A stretch of 53,379 nt of DNA from positions 1-53,379 of the forward strand of contig JAFTGH010000005.1 of the NCBI GenBank assembly GCA_017458005.1, in the 5' to 3' direction. Positions 2,640 to 53,190 of this stretch are shown here, piece by piece. Below the pieces are notes generated by a model that was not told the DNA's origin, did not search any database, and saw only the letters and a program-made list of their open reading frames with translations. The position numbers were made by a program, and so were the translations under genes. This stretch comes from Prevotella sp. (GTDB lineage: Bacteria > Bacteroidota > Bacteroidia > Bacteroidales > Bacteroidaceae). The number at the start of each line of letters is the position of its first letter. Within the stretch, counting starts at the first letter, position 1.

Positions 2640-3182
2640 ATGAAAGAACTAAAAGGAACAAAGACAGAGAAGAACCTGCAAGAGGCTTTTGCAGGAGAGT
2701 CCATGGCTCGTAACAAGTATTCATACTGGGCTTCGAAGGCTAAGAAGGACGGCTATGTGCAGATCGCCGCTATCTTTGAGGAGACTGCCGCTAACGAGAA
2801 AGAGCACGCCAAGATGTGGTTCAAACTGTTAGAGGGTGGCGCCATCAAGGACACCGCCTCTAACCTAGAGGCTGCCGCTGGTGGTGAGAACTTCGAGTGG
2901 ACCGACATGTATGCCCGTATGGCTAAGGAGGCCCGTGAGGAGGGCTTTGACGAGATCGCCGAGAAATTCGAGGGTGTCGCAGCCATCGAGAAGGCACATG
3001 AGGAGCGTTACCGCAAATTGCTGGACAATGTGAAGAAGGAGCGCGTGTTCTCGAAGGACGGTGATGTCATCTGGCAGTGCAGCAACTGCGGTCATATCGT
3101 TGTCGGCAAGAAGGCTCCAGACGAGTGTCCTGTCTGCAACCACCCGCAGGCTTACTTCCAAGTGAAAGCAGAGAACTATTAA
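2640..3182 (+). CDS. rbr: Rubrerythrin
   Basis: Cytoplasmic non-haem iron peroxidase that reduces hydrogen peroxide in anaerobes. The N-terminal ferritin-like four-helix domain (about residues 1-140) has the diiron ligands E20 and the ExxH pair E53/H56, plus a second set in the EKAHEE helix. The C-terminal rubredoxin domain shows CSNCG and CPVC, the four cysteines for the FeS4 site. The length of 180 is normal. It is a single-gene unit with its own promoter, followed by a long T-rich inverted repeat. Confidence 0.96.
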
Positions 3183-3259
3183 AAGGTAAAAAAGTAAAAA
3201 GGTAAAAGACCGATGCGCTCGATTTTTTACCTTTTTACTTTTTTATCTTTTTACCTTTT
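3181..3259. repeat. Octamer array forming an inverted-repeat terminator between rbr and the DPP IV gene
   Basis: The left arm (3181-3207) is built from imperfect 8-base units of the form GGTAAAAA. The right arm (3223-3259) is its reverse complement with one extra unit. A transcript from either side can fold into a long A/U helix ending in U, consistent with a bidirectional terminator. The last codons (EKVKR) and stop of the DPP IV-like gene lie inside the right arm. Confidence 0.7.
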
Positions 3260-24172: not shown

Positions 24173-24193
24173 TGAACTATGAACTATAAACTA
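24173..24193 (-). repeat. Heptamer array abutting the yfcE-like start codon
   Basis: On the minus strand the bases before ATG 24172 read TAGTTTA, TAGTTCA, TAGTTCA: three 7-base units ending exactly at the start codon. The same unit family precedes ribE. The array fills the gap between the kinase-like stop and this start, so it is a leader for a downstream cistron. Confidence 0.75.
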
Positions 24194-31157: not shown

Positions 31158-33086
31158 ATGTATACGAAGAATGAATTAGAACAAATGGATATCCCCCAGT
31201 TGATGGAGATAGCCAATGACCTCGGTGTTAAAGTATCGCAGGATGACGAATTAGAGAACGTGATATATGCGATTCTCGACAAGGCGGCAGAGGACACAGC
31301 CGCGAATGGAGGCGCCACGAAACGTAAGCGCACCAGAATTGCCAAGAAAGATAATAATAAGGTATATACTGTCAATGGCGCAGAAGGAGAGAACTTCGAC
31401 CTAAAGGCTGCAAAGACCACGAAGGAGAAGCCCTCTTTGGACTCCCTCTTCGCTGAGGCTGATGCCGCTGAGGCGAAGCAGCAGGAGGCGCAGAGTGAAG
31501 AGACTGCCGCCGAGCCGGTAGCAGAGAAGCCCGCCCCCAAGAAACGCGGTCGCAAGTCAAAGAAGGAATTGGAGGAGATTGCCGCCCGTGAGGCTGCGGA
31601 GGCTGCCGCCAAGGCACAGGCTGAAGCAGAGGCTGAGGCTAATGCCCCTGTGGCAGAGCAAGAGGCGCCTGAGACACAAGCAAACGCAGAAGAGGAAGTT
31701 GCCCCAGAGGTGATTGAGGAGTTGCAGGCTAAGATGAACCAGAACCAGCAGGCTCCTGCTACTCCTGAGGGAGTATGGGAAGGTGACCCCGGCGATGGTA
31801 CCGACTTCATCACTGTTGTCGACATCCCCATTGAGGATGGTGAGGCAAGTCCTACGTTGGACATCTTCGACCGTCCCATGATGCAAATGAGTCCTGACCC
31901 CGTGATGGCTGACCGTAATGCCTATGCACCTACGAAAGGCAATGCCCCCACAGAGCGTTATGACTTCGACGACCTGATTACGGGCAATGGCGTGTTGGAG
32001 ATGTTGCAGGACGGTTACGGCTTCCTGCGCTCCAGCGACTATAACTACCTATCCTCGCCTGATGACATCTATGTAAGTCCACAGCAGGTGAAGCGATATG
32101 GACTGAAGACAGGTGACGTGGTCGCTTGCACAGTTCGTCCTCCTCACGATAACGAGAAATACTTCGCCCTGTCGGAGGTGCAGACCATCAATGGACGACA
32201 GCCACAGGAAGTACGCGACCGTGTTAGTTTCGAGCATCTGACTCCCCTCTTCCCTGAGGAGAAGTTCACGCTCTGCGGCGATCCTGCCACGACGAATCCG
32301 TCTGTCCGTATTGTCGACCTCTTCTCGCCTATCGGTAAAGGACAGCGTGCGCTGATTGTCGCACAGCCCAAGACAGGTAAGACCATCCTCATGAAGGATA
32401 TCGCCAACGCCATCGCCGCCAACCATCCTGAGGCTTACATCATGATGCTGCTGATTGACGAGCGTCCTGAGGAGGTGACAGATATGGCTCGTACCGTGAA
32501 CGCCGAGGTGATTGCCTCCACCTTCGACGAGCCTGCCGACCGTCATGTGAAGATCGCAGGTATCGTACTGGAGAAGGCTAAGCGCATGGTGGAGTGCGGA
32601 CATGATGTCGTCATCTTCCTCGACTCTATCACTCGTCTGGCTCGTGCCTACAACACCGTAGCGCCAGCAAGCGGAAAGGTGCTCACTGGTGGTGTCGACG
32701 CCAACGCCCTGCAGAAGCCTAAGCGTTTCTTCGGTGCCGCCCGTAACATCGAGAACGGCGGTTCGCTGACCATCATCGCCACCGCACTGACAGATACCGG
32801 CTCTAAGATGGACGAGGTGATCTTCGAGGAGTTCAAGGGTACTGGTAACTCTGAGTTGCAACTCGACCGCATGCTTGCCAACAAGCGTGTTTATCCTGCT
32901 GTCAACCTCGTACAGTCGTCAACCCGTCGTGACGACCTGTTGCAAGACCAGACAACGCTCAACCGCATGTGGATCATCCGTAAGTTTATCGCTGAGATGA
33001 ATCCTATCGAGGCAATGAACACGGTACGCGACAGACTGGTGCAGACACACTCTAACGAGGAGTTCCTGCTTGCCATGAATGGATAA
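31158..33086 (+). CDS. rho: Transcription termination factor Rho with long disordered insertion
   Basis: RNA-dependent ATPase that ends transcription. The N-terminal SAP-like segment ([19 protein letters not shown]) is followed by an insertion of about 200 residues (about 45-250) that is low-complexity, Ala/Glu-rich and contains basic KKRGRKSKK. The RNA-binding domain ([12 protein letters not shown]) and the ATPase core come next, with Walker A KTGKT at 405-409 and the [10 protein letters not shown] region. The 642-residue length exceeds the E. coli form because of the insertion, which is known in Bacteroides Rho to be disordered and to drive phase separation. The heptamer array begins one base after the stop. 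Confidence 0.97.
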
Positions 33087-33087
33087 G

Positions 33088-33150
33088 GATTAAACATTAA
33101 ACGTTAAAGATTAAACATTAAACGTTAAAGATTAAACATTAAACATATAA
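33088..33150 (+). repeat. Nine-unit heptamer array between rho and glyA
   Basis: 63 bases made of nine 7-base units: GATTAAA, CATTAAA, CGTTAAA, the same three again, then GATTAAA, CATTAAA, CATATAA. This also gives a 21-base super-period. It starts one base after the rho stop and ends 13 bases before the glyA ATG. Related arrays lie before hisG, hisD and the MFS gene. Confidence 0.9.
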
Positions 33151-33163
33151 AACTAAATAAGCA

Positions 33164-34444
33164 ATGGAAAGAGACAACACGATTTTCGAACTCATTGAGA
33201 AAGAGCATCAACGCCAACTGAAAGGTATTGAACTGATTGCTTCGGAGAACTTCGTCAGCGATCAAGTAATGGAGGCTATGGGCAGTTACCTGACCAACAA
33301 ATACGCTGAGGGCTATCCTGGTCATCGCTATTATGGCGGTTGCCAAGTAGTGGACGAGGTGGAGCAACTTGCCATCGACCGTGTCTGCAAACTGTTTGGC
33401 GCAGAGTATGCCAACGTACAGCCACACTCTGGCGCACAGGCTAATGCCGCAGTGCTGCTTGCCGTCCTGAAACCTGGTGACACCTTCATGGGTATGAACC
33501 TGGATCACGGCGGTCACCTCTCTCACGGTTCGCTGGTAAACACCAGTGGTATTCTCTACAAGCCCGTCGGCTATAACCTCAACAAGGAGACTGGTCGTGT
33601 GGACTATGACGAGATGGAGCGTCTCGCCCTGGAGCACAAGCCCAAACTGATTATCGGTGGCGGCTCTGCCTACAGTCGTGAGTGGGACTATAAGCGGATG
33701 CGTGAGATTGCCGACAAGGTAGGTGCCCTGCTGATGATTGACATGGCACACCCTGCTGGTCTTATCGCTGCTGGCTTGCTCGACAACCCTGTGAAGTATG
33801 CGCATATCGTGACCTCTACTACTCATAAGACCCTGCGTGGTCCTCGTGGCGGTATCATCCTCATGGGCAAGGACTTCGAGAATCCATGGGGACTGAAGAC
33901 ACCAAAGGGTGTCACCAAGATGATGTCACAACTGCTCAACTCCGCCGTATTCCCTGGACAGCAGGGCGGTCCACTGGAGCATGTCATCGCCGCCAAGGCT
34001 GTCGCCTTCGGAGAGGCTTTGCGCCCAGAGTTCAAGGAGTGGGCTAAGCAGGTGCAGAAGAATGCCAAGGTTCTCGCCGAGGAACTCATCAAGCGTGGCT
34101 TTACCATCGTCAGTGGTGGTACCGACAACCACTCTATGCTGGTTGACCTCCGCTCTAAATACCCCGACCTGACTGGTAAGGTAGCAGAGAATGCCCTTGT
34201 TGCCGCTGACATCACTGTCAACAAGAACATGGTGCCTTTCGACAGCCGCTCAGCCTTCCAGACCAGCGGTATCCGTCTGGGTACTCCTGCCATTACCACC
34301 CGTGGTGCCAAGGAAGACCTGATGGTGGAGATTGCCGCCCTCATCGAGGAGGTGCTGAATGCCCCAGAGGACGAGCAGGTTATCGCCAGTGTCCGCAAGC
34401 GTGTCAATGAGCGCATGAAGGACTATCCTCTGTTTGCGTATTAA
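33164..34444 (+). CDS. glyA: Serine hydroxymethyltransferase
   Basis: PLP enzyme interconverting serine and glycine with tetrahydrofolate, the main source of one-carbon units. The PLP lysine lies in the signature [14 protein letters not shown]. Also visible are [12 protein letters not shown] at the N-terminus, the [14 protein letters not shown] substrate loop and the [10 protein letters not shown] segment. The 426-residue length is standard. Preceded by the heptamer array and followed by the candidate structured RNA. Confidence 0.97.
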
Positions 34445-34451
34445 GAACAAG

Positions 34452-34641
34452 AAATAGGGCCGTGTCGATTCGATCGGGATACTCATCAAATTACATTGAA
34501 AACTGAGTTGTTTCTTATGCCAATGGCGGGCCACATCTCCTCGGAGAAGTTGTAAAACCAGTGGATTACAAAGGCTAAGAGCGCTCTTCATCTTATAACA
34601 AAGGAGTTTTCATCACATCCTCGATGCGGCCCTTTCTTTTT
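34452..34641 (+). ncRNA. Candidate rod-shaped small RNA (6S-like)
   Basis: The roughly 190-base gap after glyA folds on itself end to end. AGGGCCG (34456-34462) pairs with CGGCCCT (34627-34633), TCGA with TCGA, GGAT with ATCC, GAAAACT (34498-34504) with AGTTTTC (34605-34611), and TTGTT (34508-34512) with AACAA. A central region has short CCAC/GTGG and CTCC/GGAG stems, and a U-rich end (CTTTCTTTTT) follows. A long rod with internal bubbles and a 3' U-tract suggests 6S RNA or the Bacteroidales-1 type RNA; the identity is inference. FMN-riboswitch motifs expected before ribE are absent. Confidence 0.55.
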
Positions 34642-34675
34642 AGTTCATAGTTAAGAGTTAAGAGTTCATAGTTAT
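34641..34675 (+). repeat. Five-unit heptamer array running into the ribE start codon
   Basis: Units TAGTTCA, TAGTTAA, GAGTTAA, GAGTTCA, TAGTTAT; the last unit contains the first two bases of ribE's ATG at 34674. Same unit family as before the yfcE-like gene. Confidence 0.85.
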
Positions 34676-35276
34676 GTTTTCTGGTATCATAGAAGAGTTT
34701 GCCACCGTAGTGGCTATCAAGAAAGACAGGGACAATATCGACTTCACCCTGCGCTGCTCATTCGTCGAGGAGTTGGGCATCGACCAGAGTGTGGCACATA
34801 ATGGCGTGTGTCTGACGGTGGTCAGTATTCAGGACGGCACCTATACCGTGACGGCTATGAAGGAGACTTTGGAACGGTCGAACCTCGGACTGCTGCAAGT
34901 GGGAGACAAAGTGAACGTGGAGCGTTCCATGCTGATGAACGGGCGACTTGACGGACATATCGTACAGGGACATGTCGACGAGACGGCACGCTGCATCCAT
35001 GTGGAGGATGCCAACGGCTCCACCTACTTCACCTTCGAATACAAGGAAGACAAGGAGATGGCGCTCAATGGCTACTTCACCGTCGACAAAGGCTCTGTCA
35101 CTGTCAACGGTGTCTCGCTCACGGTATGTAATCCCACCAAGAACACCTTCCAAGTGGCTATCATCCCCTACACCTTTGAGCACACGAACTTCTGTGACAT
35201 CAAAGTGGGAAGTGTCGTCAACTTGGAGTTTGACATTATTGGCAAGTACATTGCCCGACTGCAACAATTGAAATAG
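34674..35276 (+). CDS. ribE: Riboflavin synthase alpha chain
   Basis: Dismutates two 6,7-dimethyl-8-ribityllumazine to riboflavin. 200 residues made of two tandem lumazine-binding barrels; the first opens MFSGIIEEFATV with SVAHNGVCLTV, the second has GHIVQGHVDETA and VTVNGVSLTV, with the repeated NG(V)xLTV motif. No other riboflavin genes are nearby. Expression is probably shaped by the heptamer leader immediately upstream. Confidence 0.95.
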   Translation: MFSGIIEEFATVVAIKKDRDNIDFTLRCSFVEELGIDQSVAHNGVCLTVVSIQDGTYTVTAMKETLERSNLGLLQVGDKVNVERSMLMNGRLDGHIVQGHVDETARCIHVEDANGSTYFTFEYKEDKEMALNGYFTVDKGSVTVNGVSLTVCNPTKNTFQVAIIPYTFEHTNFCDIKVGSVVNLEFDIIGKYIARLQQLK

Positions 35277-43262: not shown

Positions 43263-43288
43263 CCTTCCTCCTTTTGTCCCTTTCTTTA

Positions 43289-43327
43289 TTTTTTACCTTT
43301 TTACTTTTTCACCTTTTTTACCTTTAC
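43289..43327 (-). repeat. Octamer array between fabD and the GH13 gene
   Basis: Minus strand: imperfect 8-base units of the GGTAAAAA type (AAAGGTAA, AAAAGGTG, AAAAAGTA, AAAAGGTA) starting at the fabD stop codon, then a purine-rich stretch up to the amylase ATG. Same unit family as at 3181. Confidence 0.75.
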
Positions 43328-47163: not shown

Positions 47164-47191
47164 TATTAAACATTAAAGATTAAACATTAAA
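47164..47191 (+). repeat. Heptamer array in the hisG leader
   Basis: Four 7-base units TATTAAA, CATTAAA, GATTAAA, CATTAAA, 9 bases before the hisG ATG at 47201. Confidence 0.8.
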
Positions 47192-47200
47192 TTTCAGATA

Positions 47201-48052
47201 ATGTTAAGAATTGCAGTACAGTCAAAAGGTCGTCTGTTTGACGACACGATGAACCTGCTCGCAGAGGCAGATATTAAGGTTAGTTCAGGACGACGCACCC
47301 TACTGGTGCAATCGGGCAATTTCCCTTTGGAAGTGCTCTATCTTCGTGACGATGATATCCCCCAGAGCGTGGCAAGTGGTGTTGCCGACATCGGCGTGGT
47401 GGGTGAGAATGAGTTTGTGGAGCGTGGTGAGGATGCCGAGATTGTGTCTCGCCTGGGTTTCTCCAAGTGCCGTCTCTCCCTTGCCATTCCCAAAGAGATC
47501 GACTACCAAGGCGTAGAGTGGTTTCAGGGCAAGAAGATTGCCACCTCCTACCCCAATATCCTCCGTCAGTTCTTACAGAAACATAACATCGAGGCAGAGA
47601 TTCACGTGATTACCGGCTCCGTGGAGATCAGTCCTGGTATTGGACTTGCCGACGGTATCTTTGATATTGTCAGCAGCGGCTCCACCCTCGTCAGCAACAA
47701 CCTCCGTGAGGTCGAGGTCGTGATGCAGAGCGAGGCACTGCTTATCGGACACAAAGGAATGTCGCAGGAGAAACGAGACATCCTGGAGCAGATGCTCTTC
47801 CGTTTCAAGGCTGTGAAGGATGCCGAGGATAAGAAATACGTTCGGATGAATGCTCCGAAGGCTCGCCTGCAGGAGATTATCAATGTACTGCCCGGTCTGA
47901 AGAGTCCTACGATCATCCCTCTTGCCGATGAGGAATGGTGCTCCGTACATACGGTCCTCGACCAGAAACGTTTCTGGGAGATTATCGGTAAACTGAAAGA
48001 GATGGGCGCACAGGGTATCCTCGTGACTCCCATTGAGAAAATGATACTTTAA
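47201..48052 (+). CDS. hisG: ATP phosphoribosyltransferase, long form
   Basis: First committed step of histidine synthesis, joining ATP and PRPP. 283 residues: catalytic domains with QSKGRLFDDT, VGENEFVERG and the PRPP loop DIVSSGSTL, then a C-terminal ACT-like regulatory domain (about 210-283, IIPLADEEWCSVHTV), so it should be feedback-inhibited by histidine and needs no HisZ. Flanked on both sides by heptamer arrays. Confidence 0.96.
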   Translation: MLRIAVQSKGRLFDDTMNLLAEADIKVSSGRRTLLVQSGNFPLEVLYLRDDDIPQSVASGVADIGVVGENEFVERGEDAEIVSRLGFSKCRLSLAIPKEIDYQGVEWFQGKKIATSYPNILRQFLQKHNIEAEIHVITGSVEISPGIGLADGIFDIVSSGSTLVSNNLREVEVVMQSEALLIGHKGMSQEKRDILEQMLFRFKAVKDAEDKKYVRMNAPKARLQEIINVLPGLKSPTIIPLADEEWCSVHTVLDQKRFWEIIGKLKEMGAQGILVTPIEKMIL

Positions 48053-48087
48053 GGTTAAACATTAAACGTTAAACATTAAAGATTAGA
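48053..48087 (+). repeat. Heptamer array between hisG and hisD
   Basis: Five units GGTTAAA, CATTAAA, CGTTAAA, CATTAAA, GATTAGA beginning directly after the hisG stop codon, 12 bases short of the hisD ATG. Confidence 0.85.
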
Positions 48088-48099
48088 TTTTAGGATTTA

Positions 48100-49395
48100 A
48101 TGAAGATATACAAATATCCAAAACGGGAACAGTGGACTGAGATTACGGCTCGCCCACGCCTTGACCTCTCCCAACTGAATGCCACCGTCGCCGCTGTGCT
48201 TGCTGATGTGAAAGAGCGTGGCGACGAGGCGGTGAAGGAGTATGAGGCTAAGTTCGACAAAGCCGTGCTGACCTCTCTTGCCGTCACTGAGCAGGAGATG
48301 GACGAGGCGGAGCAGATGATTAGCAACGACCTGAAGGACGCTATCATCCTTGCCCACCATAATATCAAGGTGTTCCATATCTCCCAGCGTTTTGTAGGTC
48401 AGAAAATCAAGACGCAGGAGGGTGTTACCTGTTGGCAGAAGAGTGTCGCCATTGAGAAGGTGGGACTCTATATCCCTGGAGGTACGGCACCACTTTTCTC
48501 TACCGTCTTGATGCTCGCCACTCCAGCAAAGATCGCTGGCTGTAAGGAAATCGTGCTTTGCACTCCTCCTAACAAGGAAGGAAAGGTGAATCCTGCTATC
48601 CTCTATGCTGCCCGTGTGGCTGGTGTCCATAAGATTTTCAAGGCAGGTGGTGTGCAGGCAATCGGTGCCATGGCATACGGCACGGAGTCCGTTCCCAAGG
48701 TATTCAAGATCTTCGGTCCTGGCAACCAGTATGTGATGGCGGCAAAGCAGCAGGTCAGTCTCGACGAGGTTGCCATCGACATGCCCGCAGGTCCTTCTGA
48801 GGTCTGTGTGGTGGCTGACGAGACAGCAAACGTGGAGTTCGTGGCAGCCGACCTGTTATCGCAGGCGGAGCATGGCATCGACTCGCAGGTATTGCTCATC
48901 ACCACCTCTGAGAAGATACTGGAGGAGGTACAGCAGGAGGTGGACAAACAACTTCAAGCATTGCCACGTAAAGACATGGCTTCTAAGTCGTTAGAGAACA
49001 GTTGCTATGTGCTCGTCAAAGATACGGAGGAGGCTATTTCCCTCTCGAACGCCTATGCTCCTGAGCATCTTATTCTACAGGTGAGGAACTATGAGCAGAT
49101 GGCGGAGAAGGTGGTCAATGCAGGCAGTGTCTTCCTCGGACAGTATGCCTGTGAGAGTGCTGGCGACTATGCCAGTGGCACCAACCATACCCTTCCCACT
49201 CACGGATATGCTACTGCCTATAATGGTGTAAACCTCGATAGTTATTGTCGCAAGATCACATTCCAGCATCTCACAGAAGATGGCATCCGCCACATCGGAC
49301 GTGCCGTGGAACTGATGGCGGAGGCAGAACAACTCGAAGCGCATGCCAACGCTATGCGCGTTCGCATCAATAGTCTCCCCAAAGAAGCCCATTAA
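48100..49395 (+). CDS. hisD: Histidinol dehydrogenase
   Basis: Oxidises histidinol to histidine in two NAD-dependent steps. 431 residues with [17 protein letters not shown], the zinc-site region [12 protein letters not shown] and the [12 protein letters not shown] motif carrying catalytic His. Its last codons and stop are part of the nine-base repeat array leading to hisC. Confidence 0.97.
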
Positions 49396-49429
49396 ACCCA
49401 TAAAGCCCATTCACCCCATGAAACCCTTA
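49385..49429 (+). repeat. Nonamer array spanning hisD stop and hisC start
   Basis: Five 9-base units AAGCCCATT, AAACCCATA, AAGCCCATT, CACCCCATG, AAACCCTTA. The hisD TAA lies across units one and two; hisC's ATG (49418) is the end of unit four. Confidence 0.8.
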
Positions 49430-50452
49430 GAATCGCTAGTCAGAAAGAATATCTGGAGTCTCGCACCCTACAGTAGTGCCCGTGACGAATATTCGGGCAA
49501 GGAGGCGCACGTGTTCCTCGATGCCAATGAGAACCCCTACGGTGCTCCCTTCAACCGCTATCCCGACCCCTTGCAGCGGGAGTTGAAGAAACAGATATCC
49601 AAAATCAAGGGGATTCCTGAGGATAGGATTTTCTTAGGTAACGGCAGCGACGAGGCGATCGACCTGCCCTACCGCATCTTCTGCGAGCCAGGCAGGGATA
49701 ATGTTGTTGCCATTGAGCCGACTTACGGCATGTACAAGGTCTGCGCTGACATCAACGATGTCGAGTATCGCCCAGTATTACTGGACGAGAACTTCGACTT
49801 CAAGGCTGCCGACCTGTTGAAGGCTTGCGATAGTCATACGAAGATTATCTGGCTCTGCTCACCCAATAACCCAACTGGCAACTCGCTCAACCGTGAGGAG
49901 ATCGTCAAGGTGATTGAGGGTTTCGAGGGTATTGTGATTGTTGACGAGGCATATAGCGATTTTGCCCAGCAAAAGACGTTGCGTACGGAACTGGCAAAAT
50001 ATCCTAACCTCATCGTACTCAACACCATGAGCAAGGCTTGGGCGTTGGCAGGCATCCGACTGGGTATGGCTTTCGCTTCCCCTGAGATTATCGCTATATA
50101 TAATAAGGTGAAGTATCCGTATAATGTCAACATGCTCACCCAGCAACAGGCGTTGGAGGCACTGAAAGACCCCTATGAGGTGGATAAATGGGTGAAGATG
50201 CTACTTGCCGAGCGCAGCCGACTAATGCAGGCTTTCCTGGAACTGCCTGTTTGTGAGAAGGTGTACAAGACGGATGCGAACTTCTTCCTCGCCAAGATGA
50301 CGGATGCCCAGCAAATCTACGACTATCTGGTGGATAAGGGGATTATCGTCCGCAACCGCACTCGTGTACAGTTATGCGGCAACTGCCTGCGCATCACCAT
50401 CGGCATGAAGAGCGAGAACAACGAACTGCTCTCTGCCCTCAGGCAATTCTAA
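49418..50452 (+). CDS. hisC: Histidinol-phosphate aminotransferase
   Basis: PLP enzyme converting imidazole acetol phosphate to histidinol phosphate. 344 residues from ATG 49418; a frame start at 49343 lies inside hisD and would add a repeat-encoded KPI stretch. Family marks: [12 protein letters not shown], the [10 protein letters not shown] loop, [16 protein letters not shown] and the PLP lysine in [11 protein letters not shown]. Third gene of the his unit; hisB does not follow. Confidence 0.95.
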
Positions 50453-50472: not shown

Positions 50473-50507
50473 TTTAATCTTTAATGTTTAATCTTTAATT
50501 ATTAATC
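50473..50507 (-). repeat. Heptamer array, opposite orientation, before the MFS gene
   Basis: TTTAATC, TTTAATG, TTTAATC, TTTAATT, ATTAATC: five 7-base units that are the reverse complement of the NNTTAAA type, ending 3 bases before the TTG start of the transporter. Confidence 0.8.
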
Positions 50508-50510
50508 TCG

Positions 50511-51707
50511 TTGGAACGCCTCTGGAACAGAAACTATATCAAGGTGATGACAGCGAACTTCGCGCTGTTCTTCGCCTTTTATTTGCTGACGCCCTTACTG
50601 CCCCTCTACCTCAGTGAGACTTTCGGCGCCACCAAGGATGTGATAGGACTGGTGCTGTCGGGCTATACCATTACGGCTCTGCTCTGCCGTCCGTTCAGCG
50701 GCTATTTCGTAGACTCCTTTCCTCGCAAGACCGTCCTGATGGTGTGCTATGCCGCCTTCGCCATCTTCTTCGCAGGCTATCTTGCCGCCAGCACCCTATT
50801 GCTGTTCACCATCGTGAGGACACTCCACGGCGGTCCCTTCGGTGCCTTGACTGTCGCCAACTCCACCGTTGCCATCGATGTACTGCCCTCCTCCCGTCGT
50901 AATGAGGGTATCGGCTACTACGGACTGAGCAACAACCTCGCCATGGCAATCGCTCCCACCTTTGCCATCTTCATCTACGCACAGACTCATAACTTCGAAC
51001 TCCTGTTCTGGCTCGCCCTTGCCATCGCCACTTTCGGTTGGATGGTCGATGCCACGGTAGATTTAAGAAGTAAGAAGGATGATGTAAGAGGTCAGGCATC
51101 GACCATCAAACCTCGTAAACTGTCCCTCGACCGTTTCTTCCTCGAAAGGGGTTGGCTATTGGGAGTGAACATGGTGTTCTTTGGCTTCTGCTTTGGGGTG
51201 ATGAGCAACTACCTCGCCATCTACGGCAAACAGGTTCTGGGGATGACGGGCGGCACAGGTACGTGGTTTATGCTCTGCTCCATCGGACTGATCCTCTCGC
51301 GACTGCAAGGTGGCAAGGCACTACGGCAGGGGCGACTGACGCATAATGCTGCCGAGGGAATGGTGATCTCCCTCGTTGGCTACACCCTGTTTGTCGCCGC
51401 TCCCAATATGTTCGGCTATTACTCCTCTGCCCTGCTCATCGGCTTAGGCAACGGACACATGTGGCCTGCCTTCCAGAATATGATGATCAGTATGGCACAC
51501 CATAACGAGCGAGGGACGGCTAACTCCACCATCCTCATCTCATGGGACATCGGCATGGGACTTGGTGTCCTCGCTGGCGGAGCCATCGCCGAGCACTTCG
51601 GCTACTCCGCCGCCTTCTGGACAGTAGCCCTCGTCAATGCCATTGGTGTCATCCTCTATTTCCTCAAGACCCAAACATTCTTCCTTACAAGGAGAATAGA
51701 GGAATAA
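50511..51707 (+). CDS. Major facilitator superfamily transporter
   Basis: 398 residues, twelve membrane helices, with MFS marks FRKT-like loop (SFPRKTVLM) between helices 2 and 3 and PSSRRNEGIGYYGLSNN in the first half. It resembles drug/proton antiporters. The start is TTG 50511: a TAA lies five codons upstream and the next in-frame ATG (50547) would lose most of the N-terminal LWNRNYIK segment. It sits where hisB often lies in related genomes. Confidence 0.9.
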   Translation: MERLWNRNYIKVMTANFALFFAFYLLTPLLPLYLSETFGATKDVIGLVLSGYTITALLCRPFSGYFVDSFPRKTVLMVCYAAFAIFFAGYLAASTLLLFTIVRTLHGGPFGALTVANSTVAIDVLPSSRRNEGIGYYGLSNNLAMAIAPTFAIFIYAQTHNFELLFWLALAIATFGWMVDATVDLRSKKDDVRGQASTIKPRKLSLDRFFLERGWLLGVNMVFFGFCFGVMSNYLAIYGKQVLGMTGGTGTWFMLCSIGLILSRLQGGKALRQGRLTHNAAEGMVISLVGYTLFVAAPNMFGYYSSALLIGLGNGHMWPAFQNMMISMAHHNERGTANSTILISWDIGMGLGVLAGGAIAEHFGYSAAFWTVALVNAIGVILYFLKTQTFFLTRRIEE

Positions 51708-52667: not shown

Positions 52668-53102
52668 TTATTATTCAGAAATATTATTCTGTCCCCACAC
52701 ATCGATGTAGACAGGTGCTAGCCATTGTGGCTTTTGCGACATTTTACAAAGGTACGGGCTCCTTGCCAAGAAGCCCGTACCTTCGAGGGCAGGATGTGCC
52801 GCCTTCGAGGGTCGAAGGTACGGGCTTCGAAGGGAGGATGTAGGGGCTTCTTCCGTGAGCAGCCACCTCACGAAAAACTGCAACCTTATGATGCCTTCCA
52901 TCACGTGTTAATAAGCCTCCACCGCAAGACTATCATGCCTCCGATTGAGGAGCGGGCAGTCTCCGATGGCTGATGGGAGGCTCTCGTATCAAGGATGGAA
53001 GGCTCTTGTCTTCACTATCGGAGGCTTTAGTGACGGAAGAAGGTACCGCCTTCGAGGGCAGGAGGTGCCGCCTAACAGGGATGAAGGTACGTGCTAACGA
53101 TC
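52668..53102. other. Noncoding block of interspersed GC-rich repeats
   Basis: No credible gene. AAGGTACGGGCT occurs at about 52749 and 52815 and inverted at 52771. A 24-base stretch from CCTTCGAGGG to TGCCGCC at about 52780 recurs with one mismatch at about 53050. A 22-base part of the same family (GAAGCCCG...GAGGGCA) is shared exactly with 27.33 kb. Between 52910 and 53035 a second theme (GCCTCCGAT and its complement) is repeated. Confidence 0.6.
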
Positions 53103-53190
53103 TTTCGCCTACGGGCGTAAATGTTTTCGCCTATAGGTGCAAATGATTTCGGCTATAGGCGCACATATTTGCGCCTACAGGTGAAAACCT
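53103..53190. repeat. Four 22-bp tandem repeats, each with a central palindrome
   Basis: Units start at 53103, 53125, 53147 and 53169, an exact 22-base period. Each has the form TTTCGCCTAYRGGYGYAAAT with small changes; the centre (CGCCTATAGGCG-type) is self-complementary. Spacing equals about two helical turns, so the palindromes lie on the same DNA face. Confidence 0.8.

Follow-up and report, generated by a model that had tools for sequence, protein, structure and literature searches.

Tandem arrays of a heptamer, NNTTAAA, fill several gaps between genes in a 53,379-nt stretch of a Prevotella sp. genome (contig JAFTGH010000005.1 of assembly GCA_017458005.1), hereafter called the window. What are these arrays, and what brought them to these gaps? 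A sequence-only reading of the window had noticed that they lie next to start codons and had suggested that they are translation-initiation leaders. We examined the arrays in the window, in its whole genome (G000; 3.05 Mb in 66 contigs, 92% complete) and in other genomes of the genus, and looked at the genes that such arrays accompany.

Arrays in the window

All four NNTTAAA arrays that had been pointed out are present in their places (Table 1); matches to the repeat pattern span 33090–33143, 47166–47191, 48055–48080 (these three direct) and 50473–50498 (inverted). The nine units counted between rho and glyA come to eight with perfect TTAAA cores and a ninth that is degenerate (CATATAAA). The arrays had also been said to end 3–13 bases before the next start; the MFS array lies 40–48 nt from the ATG at 50547, and closer if the TTG at 50511 is used. 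Genes 3' of arrays are housekeeping genes (glyA, hisG, hisD and a serA-like gene). The TAGTTCA-type heptamer arrays and the octamers of Table 1 had gone unmentioned; the arms of the octamer pair at 3181–3259 are 16 nt apart. Near the contig end, at 53035–53187, the window also holds repeats of ~22 nt (GGAAGAAGGTACCGCC..., TTTCGCCTACAGGCGCAAATGT).

Table 1 Arrays and neighbouring genes in the window (positions count from its first nucleotide)
Feature	Position	Strand	Remarks
Octamer array AAAAGGTA	3181..3207	+	left arm of an ORF-less inverted pair 3' of the rubrerythrin gene
Octamer array	3224..3259	-	right, inverted arm of the same pair
TAGTTCA-family heptamer array	24173..24193	-	between two co-directional genes
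rho	31158..33086	+	
NNTTAAA heptamer array	33089..33146	+	fills the rho-glyA gap; begins 2–3 nt past the rho stop
glyA	33164..34444	+	
TAGTTCA-family heptamer array	34641..34673	+	abuts the ribE ATG at 34674
ribE (riboflavin synthase)	34674..35276	+	
Octamer array, AAAAGGTA/TTTTTACC family, single	43270..43325	-	
NNTTAAA array, 4 units	47165..47191	+	hisG leader
hisG	47201..48052	+	
NNTTAAA array	48055..48085	+	hisG-hisD gap
hisD	48100..49395	+	
hisC	49418..50452	+	start from our own gene calling
NNTTAAA array, inverted orientation	50473..50506	-	between hisC and the MFS gene
MFS transporter	50547..51707	+	ATG start; TTG at 50511 possible

The arrays are anchored at upstream stop codons

Markov simulations of the window, 60 each at orders 1, 3 and 5, gave no array of three or more units, and a three-unit NNTTAAA pattern matches 77 times in the whole genome, overlaps counted, whereas the reversed pattern gives 0 matches; together these counts rule out a chance origin. 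The 77 matches make up 30 arrays of at least three units. We left out one (L052), a near-duplicate of another contig end, and counted 29 distinct arrays: 24 between co-directional genes, three in divergent gaps, two at contig ends and none inside genes. The duplicated array-bearing sequence lies in nearly identical, inverted copies at the starts of contigs C33 (L038) and C64 (L052), so such repeats may break assemblies.

In all 24 co-directional cases the upstream stop lies within 25 nt of the array (median 2 nt), and in 19 of the 24 the next start lies within 25 nt of its end (median 10 nt). Sixteen of these arrays are oriented with the genes and eight against them (p = 0.15). The tight anchor of the arrays genome-wide is the upstream stop rather than the start. 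The sequence-only reading was thus right to place the arrays in short gaps beside starts, and its statement that they begin right after the upstream stop is borne out for the co-directional arrays; it fails for the hisG array, which occupies a divergent gap and is separated by 158 nt from the gene next to it.

Across the genus the NATTAAA pattern occurs in 126 of 299 genomes (G000 included), very unevenly, with 0 to 264 matches per genome. The reversed control pattern also matches in some congeners (51 against 39 in G067, for example), so low counts there carry little meaning.

NNTTAAA is one of several families. G000 carries several heptamer families (NNTTAAA, TAGTTCA and others) plus octamers (AAAAGGTA and others), and we dropped a TTAAA-specific explanation on finding AGTTCAT, GTGTAGA, GAGGTAA, AATTAAG and octamer arrays in like gaps. 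Intergenic tandem arrays of period 7 number 13 in 453 kb of G000 and 22 in 400 kb of a congener, G289; those of period 8 number 7 and 10. Periods 14 and 16 are harmonics, and periods 3 to 6 are almost absent (0 and 3 in total). In coding sequence period-7 arrays are rarer, with 3 in 371 kb of G000 and 6 in 340 kb of G289. We found no array of period 7 or 8 in 400 kb of G273, an NNTTAAA-free congener. Where matching arrays lie less than 600 nt apart in G000 and G289 they are inverted in all 12 pairs and direct in none. Two of the 12 pairs enclose a gene, as described below; the other 10 are spaced 16–151 nt, too tightly for that gene.

Array content differs among orthologous gaps

Among 30 hisG-hisD loci of the genus, NNTTAAA arrays occupy the gap in four species (G000, G098, G162 and G212), with gap lengths of 47, 39, 40 and 40 nt and a similar right flank in all four. 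Elsewhere the gap holds other heptamers or hairpin-like sequence, or there is no gap. The rho-glyA gap, 77 nt in G000, measures 28, 33, 37, 35 and 20 nt in G257, G035, G190, G243 and G061, the five congeners in which it is readable and the Rho C-terminus is identical or nearly so; elsewhere the neighbour of glyA differs or the gap is unreadable. All five lack the array, which therefore looks recent in G000. A possible seed, AAACAT, is present in relatives, and the array may have grown from it.

Shifts of unit number in 7-nt steps, as the sequence-only reading had expected, are seen in both gaps: 47 against 40 nt (G162, G212) between hisG and hisD, and 77 against 28 nt (G257) between rho and glyA, a difference of 49 nt or seven units. 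The difference from G243 is 42 nt and those from the other three congeners are not multiples of 7, in a comparison whose flanks are partly assumed. In other species pairs, too, gap differences are not multiples of 7.

Arrays bracket genes for IVPs

Two long 'gaps' in G289 proved to hold a small gene bracketed by inverted heptamer arrays. The one that we scanned encodes a 23S-rRNA-intervening-sequence protein (IVP; PF05635, E = 4.7e-29), and a PF05635 search matched both places. IVPs are four-helix-bundle proteins known mainly from ribosomal RNA genes. Other members match TIGR02436, 'four helix bundle protein' (E = 8.2e-31), and a solved relative, PDB 2rld (E = 1.5e-38). PF05635 is present in 259 of the 299 genomes of the genus and in none of 14 control genomes.

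We assembled four sets of IVP loci. Set A comprises the 30 loci with the best Pfam scores in the genus, picked without regard to arrays. Set B comprises 30 loci of nine array-rich genomes, 27 once three without a recognised ORF are set aside; set C the 30 best matches to an NNTTAAA-flanked IVP; and set D the 30 best-matching loci for an IVP taken from a genome with TAACTGA repeats (see below). Sets B, C and D were picked with arrays in mind, B and C share places, and orthologous sites recur among the sets. Under a strict rule (on each side, within 250 nt, an array of period 6–9 and score at least 11, the two mutually inverted) 9/30 loci passed in A, 16/27 in B, 27/30 in C and 18/30 in D, as against 1 of 896 ordinary genes (0/324, 1/290 and 0/282). 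The nine of set A comprise seven octamer, one heptamer and one nonamer case; the other 21 fail. An array stands on at least one side in 22/30, 26/27, 30/30 and 28/30 loci, respectively. Around IVP genes the arrays are direct upstream and inverted downstream.

One scan with the IVP of L210 as query found no relative in viral contigs, and PADLOC gave nothing convincing. Two longer IVP-like proteins (L227, G319 C2, 217 aa; L228, G202 C17, 237 aa) fall short of the Pfam cut-off and have 9-nt arrays on both sides.

Anatomy of the complete element

In the 70 loci with inverted flanks, pairing of the upstream with the downstream arm has a median predicted energy of -35.8 kcal/mol, compared with -5.1 for a flipped control. 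In predicted folds of whole elements, which had been chosen for inverted arms, at least 60% of the upstream arm pairs with the downstream arm in 56 of the 70. Among measurable elements the upstream array starts no more than 25 nt from the upstream stop in 7/9 (A), 14/16 (B), 27/27 (C) and 8/9 (D), the same anchor as that of the single arrays. At the other end, at most 25 nt separate the downstream array from the next start in 3/6, 1/14, 21/27 and 3/8.

Of 87 loci in congeners, 85 have a called upstream neighbour, and in every one of these that gene runs in the direction of the IVP gene; the downstream neighbour does so in 69 of 70, against a baseline of about 73–78%; this fits the existence of the element within transcripts. 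The corresponding figures in set D are 15/18 and 12/20. Neighbours at the loci tested or aligned are protein genes (purA/hisS, serC/serA-like, hisD/hisC), not helix 25 or 45 of 23S rRNA. Four of 10 IVP pairs were unsaturated and gave dN/dS of 0.037–0.084: purifying selection acts on IVP genes. A profile scan of four IVPs returned TIGR02436-type matches and one weak Avd match, and no Y1 (IS200/IS605-like) transposase. The single arrays of the window are one arm each, with no IVP ORF.

Repeat unit and IVP are matched

The 70 loci contain 66 distinct IVPs, 53 with arrays of period 7, 12 of period 8 and one of period 9. Within period 7, protein distance correlates with unit distance (Mantel Spearman r = 0.65; none of 5000 permutations as high, maximum 0.246), and within period 8 the Mantel value is 0.43 (10 of 5000 permutations). 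The nearest-neighbour IVP shares the period in 60 of 66 cases (shuffle mean 44.5, maximum 57), and units differ on average at 2.1 positions at 30–45% protein distance and at 3.3 above 60%. Co-inheritance of array and gene through linkage contributes to the Mantel correlation.

NNTTAAA belongs to one IVP subfamily, which lies between purA and hisS, flanked by NNTTAAA arrays, in G315, G278, G289 and G202 (L205, L210, L218, L226); these neighbours were checked by family search in G315 only. In G075 a downstream side looks, by eye, like this locus. Relatives of 59–67% identity are flanked by TTGACCA/TTGAACA arrays in a serC-serA-like gap of at least 13 congeners. In G000 that gap holds a single NNTTAAA array (L041); one such coincidence among the gene pairs of its own arrays is near chance, so we count it as an illustration. 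In G098 an interrupted NNTTAAA-type IVP with both arrays lies between hisD and hisC, and a single array lies in the hisG-hisD gap. The remaining 29 HisD loci yielded no IVP, nor did 25 GlyA loci. Here one species carries an element at a place that is element-free in the other loci examined.

The assembly of G000 has three IVP matches, none of the NNTTAAA subfamily. The unit that brackets one of its IVP genes (C58:49507, L214) is that of the window's octamers at 3181–3259 and 43270–43325, and the array at 24173–24193 has the unit family of arrays flanking an IVP in G289 and G033. Counting all non-coding arrays, 14 of 38 in G289 and 9 of 27 in G000 (23/65) are at most one mismatch away from the unit of a resident IVP; shuffled units gave means of 3.9 and 0.7 and maxima of 9 and 3. 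The remaining 24 and 18 (42/65) differ by more than one mismatch from every IVP unit listed for their own genome, and six of those in G289 lie near IVP units of other genomes.

Array load and IVP number

In 11 genomes the density of 7-, 8- and 9-mer arrays rises with IVP number (Spearman 0.76, p = 0.007, kinship ignored). For this purpose G208 and G273 were treated as IVP-less, not being among the PF05635 matches listed. G016, with one IVP match, has no array in the 100 kb sampled, and G273, with no IVP match, has one 9-nt array in 400 kb. As a predictor of NNTTAAA number in particular, IVP number showed no agreement by eye across the 299 genomes and was discarded. An NNTTAAA-type match is present in 3 of 20 listed IVP-less genomes and in 123 of the 279 others (Fisher p = 0.010), the remaining 20 of the 40 IVP-less genomes falling within the 279. 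No IVP match came from G136 or G177, in which the pattern matches 20 and 22 times. In G232, which has the most pattern matches (264), the sole IVP gene is split and lies beside an octamer array.

Possible origin of the arrays

We consider it probable, with real room for doubt, that the NNTTAAA arrays derive from small elements that resemble intervening sequences (IVSs) and carry an IVP gene in gaps; each array would be an ORF-less copy of such an element or a relic with one arm. A complete element consists of a tandem 7-mer (or 8-mer, rarely 9-mer) array, one IVP gene and the same array inverted. It lies between genes, in congeners within operons; it begins at the upstream stop and extends to the next start in roughly half of those that could be measured. 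Paired with each other in RNA, the arrays would form a stem of ~30 bp that encloses the ORF; by analogy with 23S rRNA IVSs the insert might be excised by RNase III and be tolerated in operons. The IVP may recognise its own repeat. Such elements would spread; a single array would be left by loss, or made by incomplete copying, and slippage would then alter its length in whole units. The persistence of solitary NNTTAAA arrays could be due to their post-stop position, the TAA that each unit has on both strands and an A/U-rich gap that would stay open for initiation. We retained the stop content of the units solely as a reason for tolerance: the idea of a 'universal stop cassette' was given up because ACTCTAC and TTGGCTG units are stop-free. 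Tail sequences, too, were set aside as proof of descent, as at most 2 of 30 of G000's own arrays carry, by eye, a tail like that of an IVP leader. Several further results count against the element reading: the G000 assembly lacks an NNTTAAA-type IVP, 42/65 arrays are unlike every resident unit, G136 and G177 bear arrays but gave no IVP match and G232 has a split IVP, set A contains a single heptamer case, set D neighbours are not all co-directional, five TAACTGA-bearing genomes (see below) gave no IVP match, and some period-7 arrays lie in genes.

The matching of unit and protein could also mean that the IVP regulates genes by binding RNA or DNA and that the arrays are its putative binding sites, a regulon spread by selection. 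This is the main rival and overlaps with the element reading. The bracketing of IVP genes themselves fits it, as do arrays in leaders and 5' of promoter-like sequences, and it agrees with a TAACTGA-binding protein, then unidentified, that was guessed at in 2015 (PMC4679880). We nonetheless think it unlikely, given the housekeeping genes among which we saw no common theme, the two array orientations, the array-rich genomes without a matching IVP and a median IVP pI of just 7.9 (n = 113).

Still less probable, in our view, is the modular leader of the sequence-only reading, an unstructured A-rich sequence in which the number of units would tune the next gene or make it phase-variable. The 19 of 24 co-directional arrays close to a start, the 7-nt length steps between species and the A/U-rich composition speak for it, but a dedicated leader or phase switch is at odds with the stop anchor in 24/24, the eight of 24 inverted arrays, the three in divergent gaps, the housekeeping genes downstream and the direct/inverted pairs that bracket IVP genes. 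Orthologous gaps are array-free in close relatives such as G257 and G035, and the IVP link and the 8-mers would be left unexplained; the leader idea is no longer needed to account for the arrays. We give equally little credence to plain slippage, a polymerase property that expands 7-nt repeats in non-coding DNA while selection clears them from genes, with the IVP link secondary. The near absence of periods 5 and 6 beside common 7 and 8 argues against it, and so do the same units at many places, the 12 of 12 inverted adjacent pairs and the bracketed IVP genes; the AAACAT seed of the rho-glyA array would suit it, and so would one survey, said to have found heptamers more frequent than any other class in the majority of repeat-rich genomes (Mrazek 2007, cited in PMC4679880).

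TAACTGA repeats and other known systems

The sequence-only reading knew of no described system of this kind. Heptamer arrays beside start codons had been described in 2015: TAACTGA arrays are intergenic, of at least two units and mostly just 5' of starts, with stops in three frames forward, a patchy distribution in Beggiatoaceae, Cyanobacteria and Bacteroidota, and 7-nt indels between strains (MacGregor 2015, PMC4679880). S1, Csp and Csr were named there as candidates beside the proposed binding protein, and the passages on the heptamers leave their origin without explanation; 'IVP', 'intervening', 'S23' and 'four helix' do not occur in its main text. NNTTAAA arrays are likewise tandem 7-nt repeats in several copies between genes; they differ in the variable NN, in having TAA on both strands and in a more mixed orientation.

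We sought TAACTGA in named genomes and obtained at least 111 stretches at 80 loci or more, mostly in Cyanobacteria, with some in Bacteroidota and in a Parabeggiatoa. One of the 80 loci listed, in a Nostocales genome, has an IVP gene with TCAGTTA arrays upstream and TAACTGA downstream. With this IVP as query, 24 of the 29 TAACTGA-bearing genomes gave matches; at E 1e-15 the other five, the Parabeggiatoa (G338) among them, gave none. In 17 of 30 loci from such genomes TAACTGA-type arrays adjoin the IVP gene, and in eight they stand on either side of it in mutually inverted orientation. The 17 include Microcystis, Okeania, Scytonema, Plectonema, Arcicella, a Balneolaceae and a Pyrinomonadaceae genome; at several Microcystis loci a variant unit, for example ATCAGTA, makes up the upstream array. 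The IVP flanked by TAACTGA repeats is related to the NNTTAAA-flanked subfamily, and the IVP link may explain the heptamer repeats of cyanobacteria.

We propose, tentatively and reckoning it rather more apt to fail than to hold, that an IVP and its own 7–9-nt repeat are a matched pair that spreads as an mRNA-borne, transcript-excised IVS in Bacteroidota and Cyanobacteria and seeds solitary arrays. If so, this system would account for the TAACTGA repeats and perhaps for other heptamer families, and the IVP would be the missing repeat-binding or repeat-making factor. With each repeat tied to a protein subfamily, IVP function and the origin of TAACTGA could be tested together, and gap length and leader sequence may reflect element relics rather than selection on the downstream gene.

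The nearest relative of the complete element is the 23S rRNA IVS. In Coxiella this is ~430 nt long, with terminal inverted repeats that form a 28-bp stem around an S23p ORF in the loop; the stem is cut by RNase III, and S23p/IVP proteins have solved structures and 'no known function' in that account (PMC4990558). Complete elements share the ORF family and terminal inverted repeats that form a predicted stem, but lie between protein genes, have tandem 7- or 8-mers as arms and are accompanied by many solitary arms elsewhere. REP/REPIN-RAYT systems also scatter short repeats in gaps, bracket a gene with them and match repeat to protein. The RAYT is a Y1 transposase and REP repeats are GC-rich palindromes, whereas the IVP is a four-helix bundle, without a transposase match in the four scanned, and its arms are tandem heptamers. 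STRR heptamers of cyanobacteria are short tandem units, heptamers prominent, and often intergenic. They and long simple sequence repeats (as described in PMC4679880) are alike in units and placement, and we saw no IVP link for them in the literature consulted.

PF05635 is similar to Avd, an accessory protein in diversity-generating retroelements (PMC10053308), so RNA-mediated copying with a reverse transcriptase is conceivable. Among the results listed for the literature searched, which took in few subscription journals and no bioRxiv preprints, no account linking IVP genes to tandem repeats appeared. The passages of PMC4853749 on a Thiomargarita genome with 1175 TAACTGA occurrences do not make the IVP link, nor do those of PMC5524665, on a four helix bundle protein between guanylate kinase and adenylyltransferase genes, make the link to repeats.

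Sequences at the ends of arrays

Some arrays continue into recurrent tails. The hisG leader array of the window is followed by TTTCAGATAATG, a tail resembling that found 3' of the upstream arrays of IVP genes in G289 and G098. Another tail, TTTGCTACCGC, stands 3' of GTGAATA/GTGTAGA-type arrays in the hisG-hisD gaps of L061 (G107) and L065 (G221) and at L119 (G289); it was seen after single arrays and within one IVP leader. TGCTACCGC or its complement occurs once in 400 kb of G273, not at all in 453 kb of G000 and nine times in 400 kb of G289. In G000, arrays of the AGTTCAT family end in GAATTAT just 5' of TTTTGTAYCTTTGCA, which we take to be a likely Bacteroidota promoter, at C52:196619–196649, C45:10004–10032 and C45:120948–120981.
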